Assembly (NCBI GenBank): GCA_019359415.1
Contig: JAHHHH010000014.1
Span: forward strand, 47,842 to 111,841
From: Iphinoe sp. HA4291-MV1
GTDB taxonomy: Bacteria; Cyanobacteriota; Cyanobacteriia; Cyanobacteriales; Nostocaceae
Direction of reading: 5' to 3'
Length of the DNA stretch: 64,000 nt
The notes beneath the pieces were generated by a model, which had not been told where the DNA came from, searched no databases, and saw only the letters and a list, made by a program, of their open reading frames with translations. Positions 9,258 to 19,459 of the stretch are shown one piece after another. Every line of letters begins with the position of its first letter. The first letter of the stretch is position 1. A program made the position numbers and the translations under genes.

Positions 9258-11426
9258 ATGACAGAACAACAACGACTTGATGATAACCAACTGTACTATT
9301 ACGCAGATGATAAAAAGATCTCACTGATGCCGTCGCGTCAGTTTATTACGGTGCGAGCAGATGCTCAGCGCAACATCAGCAGCATGGGTGTCAATCAAAT
9401 TGTGGAGTCCCTATCCGCCGTCACAACGCCTGCTCAAGTATTTCAACTGCCGCAGTATAATCTCGCTGTTGTCAAAGTTGCTCCAGGTTCTGGTTTTGCA
9501 GCCACCTCAACACCCGTTGCAGAGACAATACGCTCTTTTGTCAACTCCCAACCAGAATTAACCCTTGGTCCCTCGGTTTACGAAGTTCCTGAAGCTTCTA
9601 CTCAGGAAGGACTAATACCCATTGGAGAAATTCTAGTGAAATTCAAACCCAATGTATCTGAATCACAGAAGAAGCAGCTATTGGGCGAAAATAACCTGGA
9701 GGTGCAACGGAGCGACTATCCTGAGCCAGGAGCATACTTGTTGGCGTGTGAAAATGGCTCGCAGACAGTAGCGATCGCCAACAAACTCCACGAGAGCGAT
9801 CTTGTAGAGTACGCTCAGCCCAACTTTGTCCGCCTCACTCCTCGCCTGAATACGCCCAACGGTGCTCAAGTCTTGTCCCCAGAACTGTCTTTCAATAGCA
9901 ATTCTTCTCTAAAGACGACAGCCGCAACACCATCCCCATCTGCCTCAGTTTCTGACCCTGGCTTTACTTCCCAGTGGGGCTTGAAAAAAATTCTAGCTCC
10001 TGAGGCTTGGGACATTTCGATGGGTAGTCCCGACATTGCGATCGCTGTTCTCGATGAAGGCTGCGACCTCAATCATGAAGACATATCTTACAAGCTTCCT
10101 GGTTACGATGCCACCAGCGGCAGCGATAATCCCTCTCCCCTTCCTAGAGATGGACACGGAACCTCCTGTGCTGGAATTGTCGCTGCTAAAGCGAACAATG
10201 GCTTGGGGGGAGCAGGAGTTGCACCCAATTGTAAGATATTACCTGTCCGCATTGCTTACGGTGCTGGCGGCGGTTGGGTGACGACTGATGCTCAGATTGC
10301 AGATGGAGTTCGTACGGCTGTGAACCGGGGAGCAGACGTGCTATCCAACTCCTGGGGTGGCGGTGCACCAAGTTCAGCGATTACCAGTGCTTTCCAATAC
10401 GCCCAGACAAATGGACGGGGTGGTAAGGGATGCCCGATCGCGATCGCAACAGGAAACGAAGATGTGCGAGGGGTTAGCTACCCGGCGAATCTCTCACCCA
10501 CAATCCCCGGCTTGATGGCGGTAGGAGCCAGTAACGAATGGGATCAGCGCAAGAACAGAACCAGTTTGGATGGCGAAAGCTGGTGGGGGTCAAACTACGG
10601 ACCAGAAGTGGATGTGGTAGCTCCCGGTGTTCACATTTACACAACTGACATTATGGGTGCAGCAGGCTATGGCGGTGGCAACTACATTCCCAACTTCAAT
10701 GGTACATCCTCTGCGACACCCCATGTTGCAGGTTTAATGGGCTTGATTCTCTCCGTCGATCCAAACCTGCGCTCCTGGGAAGTTGAGGAAATTATCAAAC
10801 GCAGTGCTGATGATTTTGGACCTGCTGGTCGAGATGAGGAGTTCGGCTTTGGGCGGATTAATTGCCGTCGCGCCCTGGAAATGCTGTCTCCAATTTCTTT
10901 TAATATCAATGTTACGCCTGAGTTTATCGGTGCAGGTAGAGAGTGCTTTATGCGGATCAACCTGCGATTGTTCAATCCCAGTATTAACAGCGTCCGCCTC
11001 GATAGTCTCAATGTCACATCTCACAATGACGACTGGACAGCAGAGATTGATCGCTTTGAGTACCGACCTAATCCAGGAGGCATTATGGAACCGTTCACAG
11101 GTCAGGATGTGTTGTTTAATGGTATCCTGCTGAAAGCAAACGGCACCGAGTCTGGCTGGAGCTATCGTTGGTCCCTAAGCTGGACTTATACCTTCTGGCG
11201 ACCCAATGCTCCTGGAGTGCCCTTGTCAGCAAATACAGCTTTGGCAGAATCCGCAGGGACTAAAGTAACTGCAAAATCTGCGAAAGGTGGCGCAACTATG
11301 CCTCAGTCTGATAGCTTGCGAAAGAATGCTACGGCAATGATTCACACCAACGGAGCCAATGGGGTTTTGGATGACTCTATCGTGGTTGAACGCCAGAGTA
11401 GAACCATCACAATTGTAATTCGCTAA
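9258..11426 (+). CDS. Subtilisin-like serine protease (S8 family)
   Basis: The 722-residue protein has an N-terminal fervidolysin-like prodomain (about residues 110-190; I-L-V-K-F-K-P-N-V-S and V-E-Y-A-Q-P-N). A complete S8 catalytic domain follows: Asp266 (AVLDEGCDLN), His300 (DGHGTSCAG), oxyanion Asn400 (ATGNED) and Ser484 (NGTSSATPHVAG). The C-terminal 190 residues look like a beta-rich accessory domain plus an Ala/Ser linker. No clear Sec signal is seen at the N-terminus, so location is uncertain. The start ATG follows AGAGAAAG. It is transcribed alone and ends at a convergent hairpin. Confidence 0.92.
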   Translation: MTEQQRLDDNQLYYYADDKKISLMPSRQFITVRADAQRNISSMGVNQIVESLSAVTTPAQVFQLPQYNLAVVKVAPGSGFAATSTPVAETIRSFVNSQPELTLGPSVYEVPEASTQEGLIPIGEILVKFKPNVSESQKKQLLGENNLEVQRSDYPEPGAYLLACENGSQTVAIANKLHESDLVEYAQPNFVRLTPRLNTPNGAQVLSPELSFNSNSSLKTTAATPSPSASVSDPGFTSQWGLKKILAPEAWDISMGSPDIAIAVLDEGCDLNHEDISYKLPGYDATSGSDNPSPLPRDGHGTSCAGIVAAKANNGLGGAGVAPNCKILPVRIAYGAGGGWVTTDAQIADGVRTAVNRGADVLSNSWGGGAPSSAITSAFQYAQTNGRGGKGCPIAIATGNEDVRGVSYPANLSPTIPGLMAVGASNEWDQRKNRTSLDGESWWGSNYGPEVDVVAPGVHIYTTDIMGAAGYGGGNYIPNFNGTSSATPHVAGLMGLILSVDPNLRSWEVEEIIKRSADDFGPAGRDEEFGFGRINCRRALEMLSPISFNINVTPEFIGAGRECFMRINLRLFNPSINSVRLDSLNVTSHNDDWTAEIDRFEYRPNPGGIMEPFTGQDVLFNGILLKANGTESGWSYRWSLSWTYTFWRPNAPGVPLSANTALAESAGTKVTAKSAKGGATMPQSDSLRKNATAMIHTNGANGVLDDSIVVERQSRTITIVIR

Positions 11427-11436
11427 TGTTCTTTTT

Positions 11437-11474
11437 GGAAGAAGGAAGAAGGAAATCTTCTTCCTTCTTCCTTG
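11437..11474. terminator. Purine/pyrimidine hairpin between convergent genes
   Basis: A run of GGAAGAAGGAAGAAGGAA is followed at once by its complement TTCTTCCTTCTTCC, giving a long stem with a tiny loop. It lies between the protease and the convergent Hsp70-like gene and probably terminates both. Confidence 0.6.
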
Positions 11475-11482
11475 GTTAACAA

Positions 11483-13465
11483 TTACGCAATCAACAACCT
11501 AGCCTTATCCGCTTGCTCTTGCACAGTTTCCTTCAGCCACTCACTGATAGATTTACCCAATTTGACAGCTATTGTTGGATCTACAGCCAAAGTCTGTTGG
11601 ATTTTTTGCTGCAACTCCGGTTTCTTCTGACGCGCTAGTTCGTCAATTCTTTTATCCGAAACCAATGTACGTATCCAGCCAGGAATATCTGTATCCTTAA
11701 CCAAGGATTCACCTAGAAAGTAAGCTAATATCCCCACAATCGGTGCAATGATTCCAGTGAAAAGTAGGATATGAAATATTCCTGCTAGGACAACACCTAC
11801 AATTAAAGCAACAAGGTGCCCAACAAATATAGAAAGCCCAGTTAAATCATCAAAAGATATGGATGTAGGAACCTTTTGTGTGTGGTCACCTAAATCAATT
11901 GTTTTAGCGCCAAAGGTATCCAGTGGTAAACCATACTTCCTACAGATTGAATCTGTTTTTTCCCTCACCTCGTTCTGAACTTGTGACAGCCACTCAATTA
12001 AACAGGTTGTCATTTTGTCATTGGCATCATTTCCTGTTAGCCAAGTTTTTGCTTTCTGCTCTATTTCCGACTCAAGAGATGAAAGCGTTATAATATTCCT
12101 GTTCCGCCAAGATTTTACACTTGGCTTTATCACCTCATCTACCAAACCATTTGCCAGTTCCTCTGCTAATTTTTCCAAGAATGAGGGTATGTCATTTCCA
12201 ACAATACCTGTCAGTTCTTGGTCAAGGAATTGACCAATTTCTTCTATAAATCCTGCTGTGCGAACGTACACCCGTCCCCAACGTGCTAGTCCTCTGGCAA
12301 TACAAAGCTCAGGTTCTCCGTCTCGCTTGCAAGGTAAGTCAGGAAATACCTCTTGGCATATTTCCAGAATAAACCACATCTTGGAAGCACTACCTGTGAG
12401 GAGGATTGCACTGGGTTGAAAACCTATGTGTTCTAATTTTTGTTTGACTGCCTGCAACTGGTCACGGAAAGCGTCTCGCCAACTTTTGTTACCAAGTTCT
12501 GGCAGAGGTTGACTCAGGATTGCATTCATAATTTTACCATTGACCAAAGGCAAAAATTTAAGTTTTCTTTGAATATCCTCAATACCTACATTAACAATGG
12601 TTTCTTCGTAAGAATCTTGATATGTAAAATATTCTTCTTTTGCTTTACGACATCGGAGTTCACAGCGATTTTTGTATAATGGATTTTGCTCAAAAATTTT
12701 TTCAAGCTGTGAAATTTCTTCTAGTTGCAAAATTTCTTCATCTCTGAGAATTTCTCCAAGTCGTAAAATTTCTTCGCTTTCCTCTCGATATTGTCTCTGA
12801 CATTCCAGGGTTTTCTTGAGAATTTCTTTTTCAATTAGGGATGCACCCAAGTCGTGTCCAAAATCTATCGGCGTATCAGACATACCCTTGACAAGAGTGT
12901 AGTCTGTGGTGGACGAACCAATGTCGATGACCAACACCGACTTTTGTAATTCTTCTATGGTGAATATGCCACTTTCTTTGGCATGCATCAAAGCAGCACG
13001 TGACTCTTTGACTACGGTCGTATTTGGTAAGCAATCTTCAGAAAGGAGTTTTTTGTAACTCTCGATTTCTTCTTGCCACCATCCTGATGGACAGCCTATG
13101 AAAAAGTAGTTGTTATCTTCTAACTGAATTTGTTTGGTATCAATCAAGTGCTTATAAATAGCATTGACAAATTCTTTAAGATTTTTTTGGTATGCTGTTT
13201 CATTAAATCGTCTAGATTTCAAGGCAATTTCAAAGATAGTAGCATCGGGCATTTGACACGCCATTTCCCCAATAAAAATTCCTTTTTTAGGATGATGGGC
13301 AATAGCGGTAATTTGACTTTTCCTGTTATTAATTAGTAGACTTTGAGGAGTCGTTTCTGGATTATCTGCTCGTACCCAGGTCAGAGACGTTTCTCCATGC
13401 CCTAAATCAAATCCGATAATTTTGATATTGTGATAATTGTGCATGAGTAATTCTGTCTGCTTCAT
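11483..13465 (-). CDS. Hsp70-like (ASKHA) ATPase with C-terminal membrane hairpin
   Basis: The actin/Hsp70-type ATPase core is complete: phosphate-1 loop I-G-F-D-L-G-H-G-E-T, phosphate-2 V-L-V-I-D-I-G-S-S-T-T-D-Y and adenosine loop I-L-L-T-G-S-A-S-K. A charged helical insert (Glu/Leu-rich, around residues 225-265) interrupts the nucleotide-binding fold. The usual beta-sandwich substrate-binding domain is not seen. Instead there is a helical region, then two hydrophobic segments (about 545-595; VALIVGVVLAGIFHILLF and GIIAPIVGILAYFLG), and an amphipathic tail. I infer a membrane-anchored chaperone-like or signalling ATPase. ATG 13465 or 13444 fits best because the ATPase motif starts a few residues later. 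The GrpE-like gene lies 72 bases upstream. Confidence 0.75.
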   Translation of the reverse strand: MKQTELLMHNYHNIKIIGFDLGHGETSLTWVRADNPETTPQSLLINNRKSQITAIAHHPKKGIFIGEMACQMPDATIFEIALKSRRFNETAYQKNLKEFVNAIYKHLIDTKQIQLEDNNYFFIGCPSGWWQEEIESYKKLLSEDCLPNTTVVKESRAALMHAKESGIFTIEELQKSVLVIDIGSSTTDYTLVKGMSDTPIDFGHDLGASLIEKEILKKTLECQRQYREESEEILRLGEILRDEEILQLEEISQLEKIFEQNPLYKNRCELRCRKAKEEYFTYQDSYEETIVNVGIEDIQRKLKFLPLVNGKIMNAILSQPLPELGNKSWRDAFRDQLQAVKQKLEHIGFQPSAILLTGSASKMWFILEICQEVFPDLPCKRDGEPELCIARGLARWGRVYVRTAGFIEEIGQFLDQELTGIVGNDIPSFLEKLAEELANGLVDEVIKPSVKSWRNRNIITLSSLESEIEQKAKTWLTGNDANDKMTTCLIEWLSQVQNEVREKTDSICRKYGLPLDTFGAKTIDLGDHTQKVPTSISFDDLTGLSIFVGHLVALIVGVVLAGIFHILLFTGIIAPIVGILAYFLGESLVKDTDIPGWIRTLVSDKRIDELARQKKPELQQKIQQTLAVDPTIAVKLGKSISEWLKETVQEQADKARLLIA

Positions 13466-13536
13466 AAAATTTATACTATTGACTTGTTCCCATGCTCTGG
13501 GTGAGAACAAGAGTAAAATGATGAATATTGATCACC

Positions 13537-14580
13537 CTACGATGCTGAAGACGATGTAGGCTCAACTACACTACCTGGTAAAAGTACTTGGTCATCTTTA
13601 ACAAAAGCGTGCTTTAGGGTAATGTAATCTATCATTTGTGAGTCGAGACTCGGCTCAAAGTAGAACATTGACCAAGCGTATCCATCCACATCTTGTTCCT
13701 GTGTAGGTTGATAAACTCGTGTTTCTATTCCGTAGCGTCTCAAAATTGTCGCAGCTTGTTCAATTCGCCTACGCACCGCAGTTGGAAGTTGATTTTGTTC
13801 ATCCAGTGCATCTGCCATCAAGTCTTGTAAATACTCTAACAAGTCTAGATAATTTTCCAAACCGGGTTTGGGTGCTTTCTCTTCCGTTCCCCCGTATGCA
13901 GCAACAGTTAGGTCAATGGATTGAAAAGCTTGATGGAGATGATCAAGCAATTTATCAATATCTACACCTATCTTCAAGTTATTTTTGCTATGTTCTAACT
14001 GGGTGACGATACCTGCGTTCTCAGATAACTGTGTTTGCTGAACTATTTTTCCAATCACGCCTCCCGTGATTGCTCCTATTAACCCCCAGGAATAACCTCC
14101 TGCTAAGGTTCCTGTTATACCGCCAGCAACTAGACTACTCACAACCTCGCGATTTTGCTGCATTTGTTGTGATAACGCCTGCTTGTAATAATCAAGCGAT
14201 GTCAATGCTTTCAGATTGTTTTCTATCTGAACGATTGTGTTAAATGGTGATAAAGTATTAGAGGTTAACTCAGTCAAGTTTACTTGGCTTTCGGATTGCA
14301 AGTTTGCACTGCTGTTAGATTTCTCTGGAGTATTTGCGGTTGAATCTTGCAGTCTGACTAATATTAAAATGCTTGTATATTGATTGAGCGCCTTTAACAT
14401 GACTATCGCAAGGCGTGCCTGTGGTGGGGTCAATCCTTGAATGTAATCACCACTGTAGTCTGCAAGTTTATTAATCTCTTCTTGAACTATCTTAACGACT
14501 TGCTCAGTTGTTTCTGCACGTTCCAACTGAGACTTTAGCTTTTCTTTTATTTCTTTGTAATGAGATATAAGCGTTTTCAT
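13537..14580 (-). CDS. GrpE-like partner protein with glycine-zipper segment
   Basis: About 347 residues from ATG 14580; the frame also opens at 14616. The N-terminus is a long helix (K-E-I-K-E-K-L-K-S-Q-L-E-R-A). A Gly-rich membrane-active segment (GGITGTLAGGYSWGLIGAIT, then more Gly) lies in the middle. The C-terminal 60 residues resemble the beta domain of the nucleotide-exchange factor GrpE: L-R-R-Y-G-I-E, then D-D-Q-V-L-L-P-G-S-V-V-E-P, matching the family's G-x-x-V-L-R-P-A-x-V-x-V pattern. The gene sits directly upstream of the Hsp70-like ATPase and is probably co-transcribed. Exchange-factor function is inferred from this resemblance and the context. Confidence 0.6.
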   Translation of the reverse strand: MKTLISHYKEIKEKLKSQLERAETTEQVVKIVQEEINKLADYSGDYIQGLTPPQARLAIVMLKALNQYTSILILVRLQDSTANTPEKSNSSANLQSESQVNLTELTSNTLSPFNTIVQIENNLKALTSLDYYKQALSQQMQQNREVVSSLVAGGITGTLAGGYSWGLIGAITGGVIGKIVQQTQLSENAGIVTQLEHSKNNLKIGVDIDKLLDHLHQAFQSIDLTVAAYGGTEEKAPKPGLENYLDLLEYLQDLMADALDEQNQLPTAVRRRIEQAATILRRYGIETRVYQPTQEQDVDGYAWSMFYFEPSLDSQMIDYITLKHAFVKDDQVLLPGSVVEPTSSSAS

Positions 14581-14736
14581 AATAGAATTTAAGATAAGAA
14601 AATTCAAGGCATCCATCTCTATGGTATCCTTGCTATCCCAAAAGTCGATATTTAGATTGGTTGGGTTTACATACCTTTAAAGTCGTATTTTTAAGTATGT
14701 ATCGCGTATGTTAAATACAATACTTAAAATTCCTCA

Positions 14737-15159
14737 CTACAGTCGAAATACACGCTCAAATGACTGACGACGATAGCGACGATAAATATCAAAATCTTTA
14801 TCAAGAGTTGCAATAGCAGAAATATCCAAGCGTTCGGAAATAGCAATCAGCGATAAATCTGCAAAATCTCCAGGTAAGTCAGCGTATTGAGCATTGAGTT
14901 CAGCAATACGTGTAAAATCCTGCGGTAATAGCGACTCACATTCATACACATGAGTTGCTAAATGTAATAAAAACTCATTTTGCACCCGCGAATTAGGAGC
15001 AAGGAAATACATCACTTCAGTAACGCATCCAACTGTAGTTACTAAATCACTGGTACACCTAGCAAAGAAATCACGAACTTGGCTGTGATAGTTGTCTGCT
15101 GCATTGTAGAAAGCAATCAGTAAAGAGCTATCGACAAGGATAATAGAATAATCAGTCAT
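14737..15159 (-). CDS. PIN-domain toxin (VapC-like)
   Basis: The 140-residue PIN-fold protein has the expected acidic residues: V-D-S-S-L-L near the N-terminus, T-E-V-M-Y, G-D-F-A-D-L-S and T-L-D-K-D-F. These form the metal site of VapC-type ribonucleases. It overlaps the upstream small gene by 4 bases (ATGA), typical of toxin-antitoxin pairs. The RNA target is unknown. Confidence 0.85.
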   Translation of the reverse strand: MTDYSIILVDSSLLIAFYNAADNYHSQVRDFFARCTSDLVTTVGCVTEVMYFLAPNSRVQNEFLLHLATHVYECESLLPQDFTRIAELNAQYADLPGDFADLSLIAISERLDISAIATLDKDFDIYRRYRRQSFERVFRL

Positions 15160-15431
15160 GCTTCTTGCTTTTGCTGGCGTTGTTTATACCGTTTCTGGAA
15201 ATACTCCGCCAGATATTTATAGCGTGCATCCCGGTCAGATAAATTACTAGGACCGTCGAGTAAATGCTGAGGTTCACCTCCCATACGCTCTAAAACTGTT
15301 TTCCTAGGCTGTAACTTTTGCCAATGTTCGTGTATCAGCCGTTTCATCAATTCACTACTTGTGGTTTTTTCCTGTGCAAGAATTTCCACTAAATACTTCT
15401 CTGTTTCGTCATCTAAACTTATGTTTATCAT
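15156..15431 (-). CDS. Antitoxin of the PIN pair (ribbon-helix-helix type)
   Basis: The 91-residue protein begins M-I-N-I-S-L-D-D-E-T-E-K-Y-L, a ribbon-helix-helix-like DNA-binding start. It ends in a basic, Gln-rich tail (K-R-Y-K-Q-R-Q-Q-K) suited to bind the toxin. It precedes the PIN gene with an ATGA overlap, so it is very probably its antitoxin and autorepressor. Confidence 0.75.
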   Translation of the reverse strand: MINISLDDETEKYLVEILAQEKTTSSELMKRLIHEHWQKLQPRKTVLERMGGEPQHLLDGPSNLSDRDARYKYLAEYFQKRYKQRQQKQEA

Positions 15432-15535
15432 AAAAATCCCTACCTTTCATTGAGTACAAAATCAATTGTGTCCTACAGACTTACAGTTAGTTCACCAAGT
15501 TCTTTACCAATAATTCTATTGTATGCAATGTTTAC

Positions 15536-17410
15536 CTACATACTTCCCTTGTATTCTTCTAACAGTTGCGGAATGTAATCATATCCATCTACACCAATCA
15601 CGGCAATTATTTTAGAACGATTTTGCTGCAATAAATTTCTGAAATATTCTTCCCCTATTTGTGCTTGCAAAATTGTGAGCAAACCAGCAGATTTTTGCCA
15701 TTCATTGGAAGCAATTTGGTTTAATAAATACATTCCTAAACTGCCAGCATAAATTGCTTTTTCTTGGTCTTGTAGATAATAATAAGCTTCGCCTAAATTT
15801 GATAAATTCAGACCTTGGAGATACAAATCCCCAGAAACTTGTGCTGCTTGGAACCCATCTTCCAAATATTTAATTGCTGTTTGAGGTTGTTCAATAACTA
15901 AATAGGCTACGCCTAAACTACTGAAACACAGAGCTTTACTTTGAACATCACCTAGTCGTTCTGATAGTGTTAAGCCTTGTTGCAAGTAGTTAATCGCTGT
16001 TTCATAAATCTCTGGTTCAACTTGTTCCAACTGCTGAGCTTGCATGACTTCGCTGTATCCCAAATTTACCAGAGCATTTGCTTCTCCCGTGCGATCGCCT
16101 GTTTGCCGACTAAGTATTAATGCACGTTGACTAAAGTCAATTGCATCAGCATACATTTTTTGAGCAACGCAAGTACGGCTGAGGTGGTTGAAATTAGCAA
16201 TTTCACAAGAGCGATCGCCTGCATTGCGTGCTATCTCCAAAGCTTGCTGATGAAATTCCACAGAGCGTTTATATTGCCCGAATGCTCGCACAGAAGAGCC
16301 TAAAAGTGTCAAAATCCGTGCTTTTTCTTGAGTTCCTTCTACTCGGCGCAATGGTTCATCCAAATAATTCAACGCATCTCGTAAGTACTTGCCAGAAAAA
16401 GAGGCGAAAATTCCCCCGTATAATGGGAAGTAAGGACGCTGTGCAAAGGTTCGCAGAATTTGTAGCATAACTTGAGAACAACCAGCGCTGTACATCTGCG
16501 CAACGCTACCAAAACCATTTGCTAGTTGACTCCAAATCACTGCAAACGTCAAGAAAGTCGAAATCGACAACTTTGACCCTGCTTTGACATTATAAGGCTG
16601 TTGATCAAACCAGTTAATCAACCCCCGTTGCAAGTACTGCAAAATGACAGCCATCTCCACCCAATCACTGAGGCTGATACCGCTATGCTGTTGGGCAAAT
16701 TCAATTGCAGATTTCTCTAAAGCCAAGTTGCGAAACAGCGCTTGGGGGAATGTACTATTAACTTGCTTTGCCCAAGTTGCCCAAGGACCACGTTCTCCCG
16801 GTACACCGCCAAATCCCAGTGATTCTCGGCTTTGCTCGTACATCCAGCTCACCAAGTGGTCTTGCAGTCGCTGCCAACTTACTATACCACGGTTAATACC
16901 ATCTGATATTTGCTGAAAATCAGAATCAGCCTGAGCAAATTGTTGTAAAGATTTTGATACTTGCTGGATTTGCTGTAAATTCAGTGCATTCTTCCGGTTA
17001 GGATCGATAGTACGTAAGAATGCCGTAAGACGACTTCCTACTTCCGCTAAAGTCACTTCTTTAACTGCTGAGGTAATAGCTTCTGTGGCTTTATTTTGCT
17101 GTTGGGCGCGTTGCCATTGACTTTGAATTGTCTTTATTGCCCTGAGACTACGGGTTGCTTTCGCTTGCTTGAGTTCATCTTTTTCCGTGTCTACTTGTTG
17201 TTGAGTAGAATTGAAGCGATCGCTCAAAGCGAGTTCAAAAACTTCCCCTGTGTCAGCAGTCACACCTTTGAGCAACATTTGATAGACTTGCTCTTGAGAG
17301 CTAATCTTGCCCTTAAGGGTGTTTTGGACAATTTCATCAATTAAAGCGAGATACTTTTCGCGCAATGGCAGAGAGTCAGACACATTAGCAACCACAAAGG
17401 GATACGTCAA
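15536..17410 (-). CDS. TPR-repeat protein, function unknown
   Basis: The 624-residue soluble protein has an N-terminal helical region (about 1-330) without a recognised domain, including Gln-rich coiled-coil stretches. At least five tetratricopeptide repeats follow from about residue 355, with the usual pattern A-x-x-F-x-x-x-A-L-x-I-A-R-x-x-G-D-R and N-L-x-x-x-Y. TPR arrays mediate protein contacts. It reads in the same direction as the toxin-antitoxin pair and the GrpE-like and Hsp70-like genes. The 104-bp gap to the next gene is compatible with either an operon or an own promoter. Confidence 0.8.
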   Translation of the reverse strand: MTYPFVVANVSDSLPLREKYLALIDEIVQNTLKGKISSQEQVYQMLLKGVTADTGEVFELALSDRFNSTQQQVDTEKDELKQAKATRSLRAIKTIQSQWQRAQQQNKATEAITSAVKEVTLAEVGSRLTAFLRTIDPNRKNALNLQQIQQVSKSLQQFAQADSDFQQISDGINRGIVSWQRLQDHLVSWMYEQSRESLGFGGVPGERGPWATWAKQVNSTFPQALFRNLALEKSAIEFAQQHSGISLSDWVEMAVILQYLQRGLINWFDQQPYNVKAGSKLSISTFLTFAVIWSQLANGFGSVAQMYSAGCSQVMLQILRTFAQRPYFPLYGGIFASFSGKYLRDALNYLDEPLRRVEGTQEKARILTLLGSSVRAFGQYKRSVEFHQQALEIARNAGDRSCEIANFNHLSRTCVAQKMYADAIDFSQRALILSRQTGDRTGEANALVNLGYSEVMQAQQLEQVEPEIYETAINYLQQGLTLSERLGDVQSKALCFSSLGVAYLVIEQPQTAIKYLEDGFQAAQVSGDLYLQGLNLSNLGEAYYYLQDQEKAIYAGSLGMYLLNQIASNEWQKSAGLLTILQAQIGEEYFRNLLQQNRSKIIAVIGVDGYDYIPQLLEEYKGSM

Positions 17411-18396: not shown

Positions 18397-18930
18397 CTAC
18401 TCAACAATACCAAAAACCGCTTTCACATCAGCAATAGTAACCATCAGTGTCATTGGTGCGACAGGTGAAGGGATAAAACCACATTTCTCGTAAAATCGCT
18501 TTGCTTGTTCTGAAATAGCATGGACGAGGATAGCCCTAATTCCAGCAATTGATGCTGCTTGTAAAGTGCGTAATACAGCATCCCGTACTAATGCACGTCC
18601 AATTCCTTTCCCTTGCCAGTTCTGATCCACCGCCAGCCGCCCAATCACCATGACACGAATCGCCTCGGGCATATTGCGGCGGACTCGCCCCGACGCACTG
18701 GCGTTTAATACACTACCGTTCGCCAGACAGTAGTATGCAATAATCTTTTGCTCAACACTCACCACATATGTTCGGGAAGCACCGCTGTCTTCATTCTTGA
18801 GCGCCCGTTTTCTCAACCAATCGTCTAGTTCTGGATTACCTGAATCAAAATCTTCCAGCAGATACTCTGGCTTTATGGGTTGAGGAGGGTGCAAGATCCT
18901 GTTTTGCTGGTTGCTCACTTTCAATCCCAC
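18397..18930 (-). CDS. GNAT acetyltransferase toxin (TacT-like)
   Basis: The 177-residue GNAT-fold protein has the acetyl-CoA loop (QNWQGKGIGRALVRDA) and the C-terminal Y-E-K-C-G-F. The arrangement and size match TacT/AtaT-like toxins that acetylate aminoacyl-tRNA. It follows a DUF1778-type antitoxin gene with a 10-base overlap, which fixes the pair. Confidence 0.85.
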   Translation of the reverse strand: MGLKVSNQQNRILHPPQPIKPEYLLEDFDSGNPELDDWLRKRALKNEDSGASRTYVVSVEQKIIAYYCLANGSVLNASASGRVRRNMPEAIRVMVIGRLAVDQNWQGKGIGRALVRDAVLRTLQAASIAGIRAILVHAISEQAKRFYEKCGFIPSPVAPMTLMVTIADVKAVFGIVE

Positions 18931-19238
18931 GGCGCTTTTGTTGTCAGCAATTGACGCAAGTTCTCATTGGCAGAAGGCGGTGCATCAAGAAGATCCACAA
19001 ATTGCTTGAATTTCTCATCATTTAGCATAAACAGCCGGCGATCTAGTAAAACCGCTTCTGCTTCCCGACAAGCAGTCTCTAGCATGAAATCAGAACGGTT
19101 CTTGCCTAGTGCTTCTGCTGCACGATCAATTAAATCACGTTGTGCTTGGTGCGCCCGGATGTTGATAGTCACATCGCGGTTTCGGTTCGCCGATTCAGTT
19201 GATTGCGATTGCATCACTCTATCTTTTTTAATATCCAT
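18921..19238 (-). CDS. DUF1778-type antitoxin (TacA-like)
   Basis: From ATG 19238 the protein has about 105 residues. R-D-V-T-I-N-I-R-A-H-Q-A-Q-R-D-L-I-D-R-A-A is the ribbon-helix-helix DNA-binding domain of the family. The tail contacts the toxin. The frame extends upstream to 19343 but that part does not resemble the family; ATG 19214 is another possible start. Confidence 0.8.
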   Translation of the reverse strand: MDIKKDRVMQSQSTESANRNRDVTINIRAHQAQRDLIDRAAEALGKNRSDFMLETACREAEAVLLDRRLFMLNDEKFKQFVDLLDAPPSANENLRQLLTTKAPWD

Positions 19239-19459
19239 ACAATGAGTATACAAAATATGTATAGACAACATCAACACAAACTTCCAGCAAAAATCTACCC
19301 TACTGTACTCAATCAATAATTCTAGGATTGCTATATTCGCCAATATATTTCATACACGCTAGCTTAAAAGAACGTAAGTAAAATTTATGCGTCAAGCAAG
19401 TCTTTATCGCTTGACAAAAATTATATATTCTGCATAAGAGCTATAAAACCGATAAAAAG

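Follow-up and report, generated by a model that had tools for sequence, protein, structure and literature searches.

Hsp70 is usually viewed as a chaperone that grips peptides. What does its ATP-driven cycle serve when the peptide-gripping domain is missing and a membrane-type domain stands in its place? This question is raised by two neighboring genes on the minus strand of the window analyzed here, a 64,000-nucleotide stretch from the 7.36-Mb genome of the cyanobacterium Iphinoe sp. HA4291-MV1 (contig JAHHHH010000014.1). The original prediction had described them as a membrane-anchored Hsp70-like ATPase and a GrpE-like partner. Our analysis shows that the anatomy of this ATPase, an Hsp70 nucleotide-binding domain (NBD) joined to a hydrophobic hairpin domain and encoded next to a conserved partner gene, is well supported (Table 1).

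Taken as a single sequence, the window ATPase gave weak matches: Pfam MreB-like_C at 0.034, MreB as the top match in the PDB (E 0.0072), and the NCBIfam chaperone model PRK11678 at 7.5e-6, yet with 25 bits where the cut-off is 331. Profile searches settled what these matches left weak. A profile of 32 members, run against the PDB, reached a best E of 2.1e-12, with 116 distinct sequences below 0.001; all 60 of the matches listed were Hsp70, and one DnaK was aligned over profile positions 31-390 (5e-12). Two members of this profile carry an additional, fused Hsp70 domain, and the columns that it adds should be mostly gaps; a 16-member profile built without fused members again gave Hsp70 (6.9e-7; 60 of 60 listed). 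Residues D13, K76, E147, D174 and T179 are invariant in 32 of 32 members and were paired by eye with D8, K70, E171, D194 and T199 of DnaK. The nucleotide motifs of Hsp70 type that had been claimed for this protein were thus borne out, and we conclude from the profile comparisons that the window ATPase carries a real Hsp70-type NBD.

The same data bear on an actin-like scaffold, in which the ATPase would polymerize at the membrane in the manner of MreB, FtsA or PilM, with the partner as its membrane anchor. Besides the single-sequence match to MreB, this idea draws on the membrane-type segments found in both proteins and on the Pfam models, since MreB_Mbl and PF00012 (HSP70) each match 16 of the 32 members at 0.01, the window ATPase being matched by neither. 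The profiles favor Hsp70, however, and in hhalign comparisons with proteins of the host genome the DnaK paralogue scored 4e-8, in an alignment covering the NBD only, and a YegD-like protein 2e-7, versus 4e-5 for MreB. We therefore rejected actin/MreB membership and regard the scaffold as very unlikely.

Beyond the NBD the protein departs from Hsp70. No beta-sandwich substrate-binding domain was found by profile: in each of the 60 PDB chains listed, the best stretch goes no further than profile position 390, and past about residue 390 there was no match to known domains. An AlphaFold2 model of poor quality (mean predicted local distance difference test score, pLDDT, 50; predicted template modeling score, pTM, 0.34) renders this part mostly helical, with helices at residues 538-562 and 566-577, and hydropathy places a C-terminal hydrophobic segment in 30 of the 32 members. 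The prediction that a helical part with two hydrophobic segments replaces the substrate-binding domain agrees with these data, the helices being modeled at low confidence. The ATPase thus resembles DnaK in its full-length NBD, catalytic residues and NBD-only alignment to the host's own paralogue, and differs from it in having a hairpin domain where no substrate-binding domain was detected, and no PF00012 match.

In a phylum sample of 386 genomes, searches with the ATPase and with the partner matched the identical 14 genomes, all of them in the window's order, the share of the sample lying outside that order not being stated; the 32-member profile returned the same 14. Within the order, the profile at 1e-12 found the ATPase in 78 of 388 genomes, spread over 48 of 150 genera, the nearest relatives being in Scytonema, Brasilonema and related cyanobacteria. 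Sixty-six loci were then laid out via the ATPase (the window, L033-L057, L105 and L140-L179 minus L177; Lnnn denotes a laid-out locus), a set that over-represents near relatives of the window and includes three genomes twice. In 65 of them the ATPase open reading frame (ORF) exceeded 60 bits, L149 holding a remnant only. A partner match adjoined the ATPase on the same strand in 60 of these 65 loci, upstream in 58 and downstream in two; in five of the 58, one ORF of a mechanical ORF list intervenes, and the partner of L169 is cut at a contig end. The intergenic gap, taken from mechanical ORF starts, had a median of 51 nucleotides (range -35 to 313; n = 57 pairs within -200 to 400 nucleotides). 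Pairwise identities of the two proteins correlated across 28 loci (r = 0.97), as is partly expected for any linked genes. The ratio of nonsynonymous to synonymous substitution rates (dN/dS) against 12 relatives was 0.08-0.15 for the ATPase and 0.15-0.31 for the partner, so that both genes are, by this measure, under purifying selection. Adjacency in other genomes, named beforehand as a point on which the idea could fail, was therefore found, and we conclude on this comparative evidence that ATPase and partner form a true two-gene unit. It is separate from the housekeeping DnaK system, as had been proposed: the DnaK and GrpE genes lie elsewhere in the host genome. A literature search, to which subscription journals were largely inaccessible, found no description of this gene pair.

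The partner consists of a conserved N-terminal helical part, a variable linker, a Gly-rich stretch and a C-terminal domain, a layout that rests in part on a low-confidence model. Against the PDB, its best E was 0.46 with a 17-member profile, and a 29-member profile gave no match up to 10. The curated GrpE model (PF01025) matched three other places in the host genome, the partner gene not being among them. Profile-profile comparison of the partner with GrpE gave E values of 0.003 and 0.002 (0.013 and 0.0027 with more members), and the C-terminus alone gave 0.0062 and 0.0012, as compared to 0.015 and 0.034 when the same GrpE alignments were reversed. The real scores of the C-terminus were 24.2 and 28.0, the latter with a divergent GrpE, and the best of 58 scoring shuffles reached 22.6. 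The partner thus shares with GrpE its place beside an Hsp70-type ATPase and a weakly matching C-terminal order of helices, strands and motifs; it differs in falling outside the PF01025 matches, in the membrane-type middle of most relatives and in an extra N-terminal domain. For the GrpE-like beta domain claimed for the partner, the profile comparisons are suggestive, but neither a GrpE model nor any solved structure matched, and GrpE membership as a firm claim was rejected. The claimed Gly-zipper segment is weak, its Gly-rich stretch having sub-threshold Pfam scores (C19orf12 6e-4, Gly-zipper_Omp 0.65); a central hydrophobic segment exceeds the hydropathy cut-off in 24 of 29 aligned partners. 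A PADLOC match of the partner to LmuB (9e-5) was read as chance similarity over helical stretches and dropped.

Table 1. Coordinates of the gene pair, its parts and the neighboring PIN gene pair in the window
Feature	Position	Strand	Remarks
ATPase gene	11483..13444	-	653 amino acids from the ATG of relatives; ORF opens at TTG, 13510; NBD about residues 1-390
ATPase C-terminal part, about residues 391-653	11483..12274	-	predicted helical domain, hydrophobic hairpin, helical tail; low-confidence model and profile
ATPase hydrophobic segments, residues 544-562 and 564-582	11699..11815	-	hydropathy
Partner gene	13537..14580	-	347 amino acids from the ATG of relatives; ORF opens at 14616
Partner C-terminal domain, about residues 202-347	13537..13977	-	weak GrpE resemblance in profile comparisons
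PIN gene and small ribbon-helix-helix (RHH)-like gene	14737-15431	-	Pfam

How might such a pair work? We weigh at even chances the reading that it is an Hsp70-type ATP switch which is anchored to a membrane and has a regulator of its own. The family match and the invariant catalytic residues suggest that the ATPase would bind and hydrolyze ATP via its NBD. The nucleotide state may then pass to the C-terminal helical domain and its hairpin, lying in or on the membrane instead of a peptide-binding domain, so that membrane attachment, assembly or shape, and not the grip on an unfolded peptide, would change with ATP turnover. The partner, which has membrane-type segments in most relatives, would bind the NBD and control the cycle, its most likely action being to accelerate the release of nucleotide, in the way GrpE acts on DnaK; this last is the weakest step. 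In common lineages the switch would have an accessory function, and in side branches it may be coupled to the gene of a HerA-type ATPase, to a TIR domain or to a second Hsp70 NBD.

Several observations weigh against this reading. The ATPase occurs without a detected partner in five of the 65 loci (L157, L164, L167, L170 and L173), and two of the 32 ATPases (L057 and L157) are devoid of the hydrophobic segment; in the partner encoded in the window itself, no central segment rises above the hydropathy cut-off. The structure models, named beforehand as a second check on the idea, are too poor to decide it (mean pLDDT 48 for the partner and 50 for the ATPase), and the helices followed by C-terminal strands in the partner model fit GrpE and are not evidence for it. 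The match between partner and GrpE profiles is weak (E 0.001-0.013, probability 3-19%), and housekeeping GrpE alone scored 19.8 (E 0.038), under its own best shuffles (22.6 and 20.5). When single sequences were ranked in a decoy test (n = 315), eight decoys topped the list; the 15 GrpEs ranked 9, 14, 18, 19, 21, 25, 28, 29, 33, 42, 54, 68, 97, 102 and 272, a clear upward shift among sequences that are mutually non-independent.

The distribution of the pair was followed in further genomes (g7 denotes a genus, f1, f50 and f58 families, and c13 and c14 gene clusters). In g7 the ATPase is present in 39 of 53 genomes, flanked by c13 in 19 and by c14 in 17 of 21 loci, which correspond to 18 and 16 of 20 genomes (L125 and L226 being one place). 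Six of the 14 g7 genomes without the ATPase were chosen for comparison: five are also without c13, and the sixth has it in another setting. Read by eye, c13 appears to be S-adenosylmethionine hydroxide adenosyltransferase-like; it lies divergently upstream of the pair in L049, L051, L052, L055, L174 and other g7 loci. In one genus at least, the common form thus appears to be stable, an argument against a cassette devoted purely to defense. Elsewhere, presence ranges from 3 of 61 genomes in one family to 13 of 20 in another.

These data also bear on membrane-bound quality control, in which the ATPase would extract or remodel membrane proteins and its helical C-terminus would bind the substrate. 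Purifying selection, the fixed site in one genus and an Hsp70 NBD with its catalytic residues are what such a chaperone-like factor would show, yet no peptide-binding domain was found by profile and sporadic presence is odd for a core factor. Moreover, no gene recurs beside most pairs, so that no J-protein can be tied to the pair, the neighbors having been domain-scanned in part. We hold quality control to be unlikely.

Returning to the spread of the pair, quick trees follow families only partly: f1 rows of the common branch group with a plasmid copy, and f58 and f50 rows are split. The f1 branch that contains the window is separate from the common branch, the window ATPase having 39% identity to that of L048 from the same family, whereas L048 has 67-75% identity to other families. 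Beyond the cyanobacterial genomes, the searches covered plasmids, where by tblastn ATPase and partner each matched one Calothrix record, and a conjugative Calothrix plasmid carries one copy of the pair between integrase genes. The annotated partner on the Calothrix plasmid (L105:8009-8815; AP018209.1, NIES22_68830) is 268 amino acids long and is without the conserved C-terminus. Viral contigs scanned with profile A1 yielded 54 pattern-matching stretches, with no relative among them.

Side branches attach further genes or domains to the ATPase. By clustering, a HerA/DUF87-type ATPase gene lies directly downstream in 8 of the 65 loci (L047, L056, L057, L153, L163, L166, L167 and L170), spanning five families; the one that was domain-scanned, in L047, matched DUF87 (2e-10), PADLOC mad8 (6e-16) and HerA (4e-13). 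The quick tree puts these rows at two or more positions, and some of them sit on long branches. Within six ORFs, a small protein of 105-110 amino acids is encoded in four HerA-type loci, a membrane protein in three and a zinc-peptidase-like protein (Peptidase_Mx1 just under cut-off) in five, L057 having such a gene farther on; two loci have a ThiF/E1-like gene (2e-40 and 2.1e-43). The pair and HerA-type region of L047 (2994-7934) includes two NBDs in one ORF of 1078 amino acids, and L163 has two consecutive ATPase genes. A second, N-terminal Hsp70 domain is present in L144 (5.1e-38) and L171 (1.4e-8), the latter starting at a contig edge, and the N-terminus of L157 has no assigned domain. In L173 (5162-7591), a TIR domain is fused N-terminally to the ATPase (TIR_2 1.9e-20; HSP70 24.5 bits versus a cut-off of 20.6), with no partner detected, and a relaxase-type gene (2.8e-21; L173:4109-4744) adjoins the fusion. 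In two Brasilonema loci, L035 and L044, a Roc-COR-TIR gene is found downstream, on the strand of the pair, identified by domain scan in L035 and by membership of the same cluster in L044.

Such branches hint, at the level of gene content, at use in conflicts. In an antiviral or abortive-infection system, the ATPase would sense infection or damage via its nucleotide state, and the hairpin, or a fused or linked effector, would harm the membrane or the NAD pool. The TIR fusion beside a relaxase-type gene, the HerA-type loci with their mad8 match, zinc-peptidase-like and ThiF/E1-like genes, the two Roc-COR-TIR neighbors, the copy on a conjugative plasmid and the patchy spread all fit such a system. 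Yet the TIR domain is fused in one case only (1 of 53 genomes in its genus), PADLOC gave no convincing match for the window proteins (none for the ATPase, LmuB for the partner), inheritance in g7 is stable, and in another family 13 of 20 genomes have the ATPase. Loss and transfer, like the side branches, are compatible with a defense role. The evidence on defense therefore cuts both ways, neither showing nor excluding it, and we consider a conflict system possible but rather unlikely. A more general form of the switch, in which an Hsp70 motor has given up its peptide grip and gained a membrane hairpin instead, works with its own membrane-embedded exchange factor and is plugged into varied outputs (TIR, or a HerA/zinc-peptidase/E1-like operon) as an ATP-clocked trigger of immunity or cell death, would be a new class of membrane switch; we regard this as a doubtful, speculative extension.

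Related arrangements are described in the portions of three papers drawn on here. GAP1-N2 GTPase conflict systems, mostly of actinobacteria and firmicutes, contain HSP70 and GrpE with the GTPase and FNIII, DnaJ or TPR (tetratricopeptide repeat) proteins, and a subset adds an HSP70 domain without peptide-binding domain (Kaur et al. 2020, PMC7159879); among the pairs studied here, none of these genes is a recurrent neighbor of the majority, a minority of the neighbor clusters having been domain-scanned. CoCoNuT systems have a core of McrB/McrC and an Hsp70 with NBD and substrate-binding domain, and Type III-A has an Hsp70-like unit, with variants that carry HerA/FtsK-type ATPases and another variant that has a glycine zipper protein (PMC11090510); the McrB/McrC core was not recognized in scanned neighbors of the pair. 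In the 'chaperone group' of cyanobacterial dynamin-like proteins, a DnaK-domain protein is linked to membrane remodeling (PMC5827413), whereas no dynamin was found among the eight window proteins scanned.

The original prediction gave the ORFs of the pair correctly in strand and coordinates (11483-13510 and 13537-14616). Their upstream TTG/ATG starts are probably too early, most aligned relatives opening at the ATGs 13444 and 14580. A scan of positions 11300-15700 gave 11 promoter-like sites (12.1 in shuffles) and 6 terminator-like sites (2.8 in shuffles), with none falling between the genes of the pair; an Rfam scan of the window gave 0 matches. A spacer sequence at 13486-13503, considered as a repeat, was dropped with 1 copy in the window.

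Upstream in the same direction, as predicted, lie a PIN gene (1.2e-9; 39.2 bits versus a cut-off of 23.6), a gene of 91 amino acids that overlaps it by 4 nucleotides (RHH_1 0.023, under cut-off) and a TPR gene (1.9e-20). By its PIN-domain toxin the first pair may be of VapBC type, with NCBIfam VapC models far under cut-off. Within six ORFs of the ATPase, the TPR gene occurs in 6 of the 65 loci; the count is 4 for the PIN gene and 4 for the RHH gene, and every one of these loci belongs to the branch that includes the window. Because these genes are rarely near the pair, we rejected them as parts of the unit, and the whole minus-strand cluster is unsupported as such. Near the PIN pair, a second toxin-antitoxin-like pair (18397-19343, minus strand) encodes a TacA1-type antitoxin (2.5e-25) and then a GNAT acetyltransferase (1.2e-12). 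On the plus strand, a subtilase gene (9258-11426; Peptidase_S8 9.9e-48, with a fervidolysin-type prodomain) converges with the ATPase gene, their ends lying 56 nucleotides apart.

If the reading of the pair as a membrane-anchored switch is true, a gene pair common in the order would show that the Hsp70 cycle can power a membrane process. With this pair one could test whether regulation of the GrpE type can be re-created within a membrane protein, and the TIR and HerA branches of the pair would link an Hsp70-type motor to bacterial immunity.

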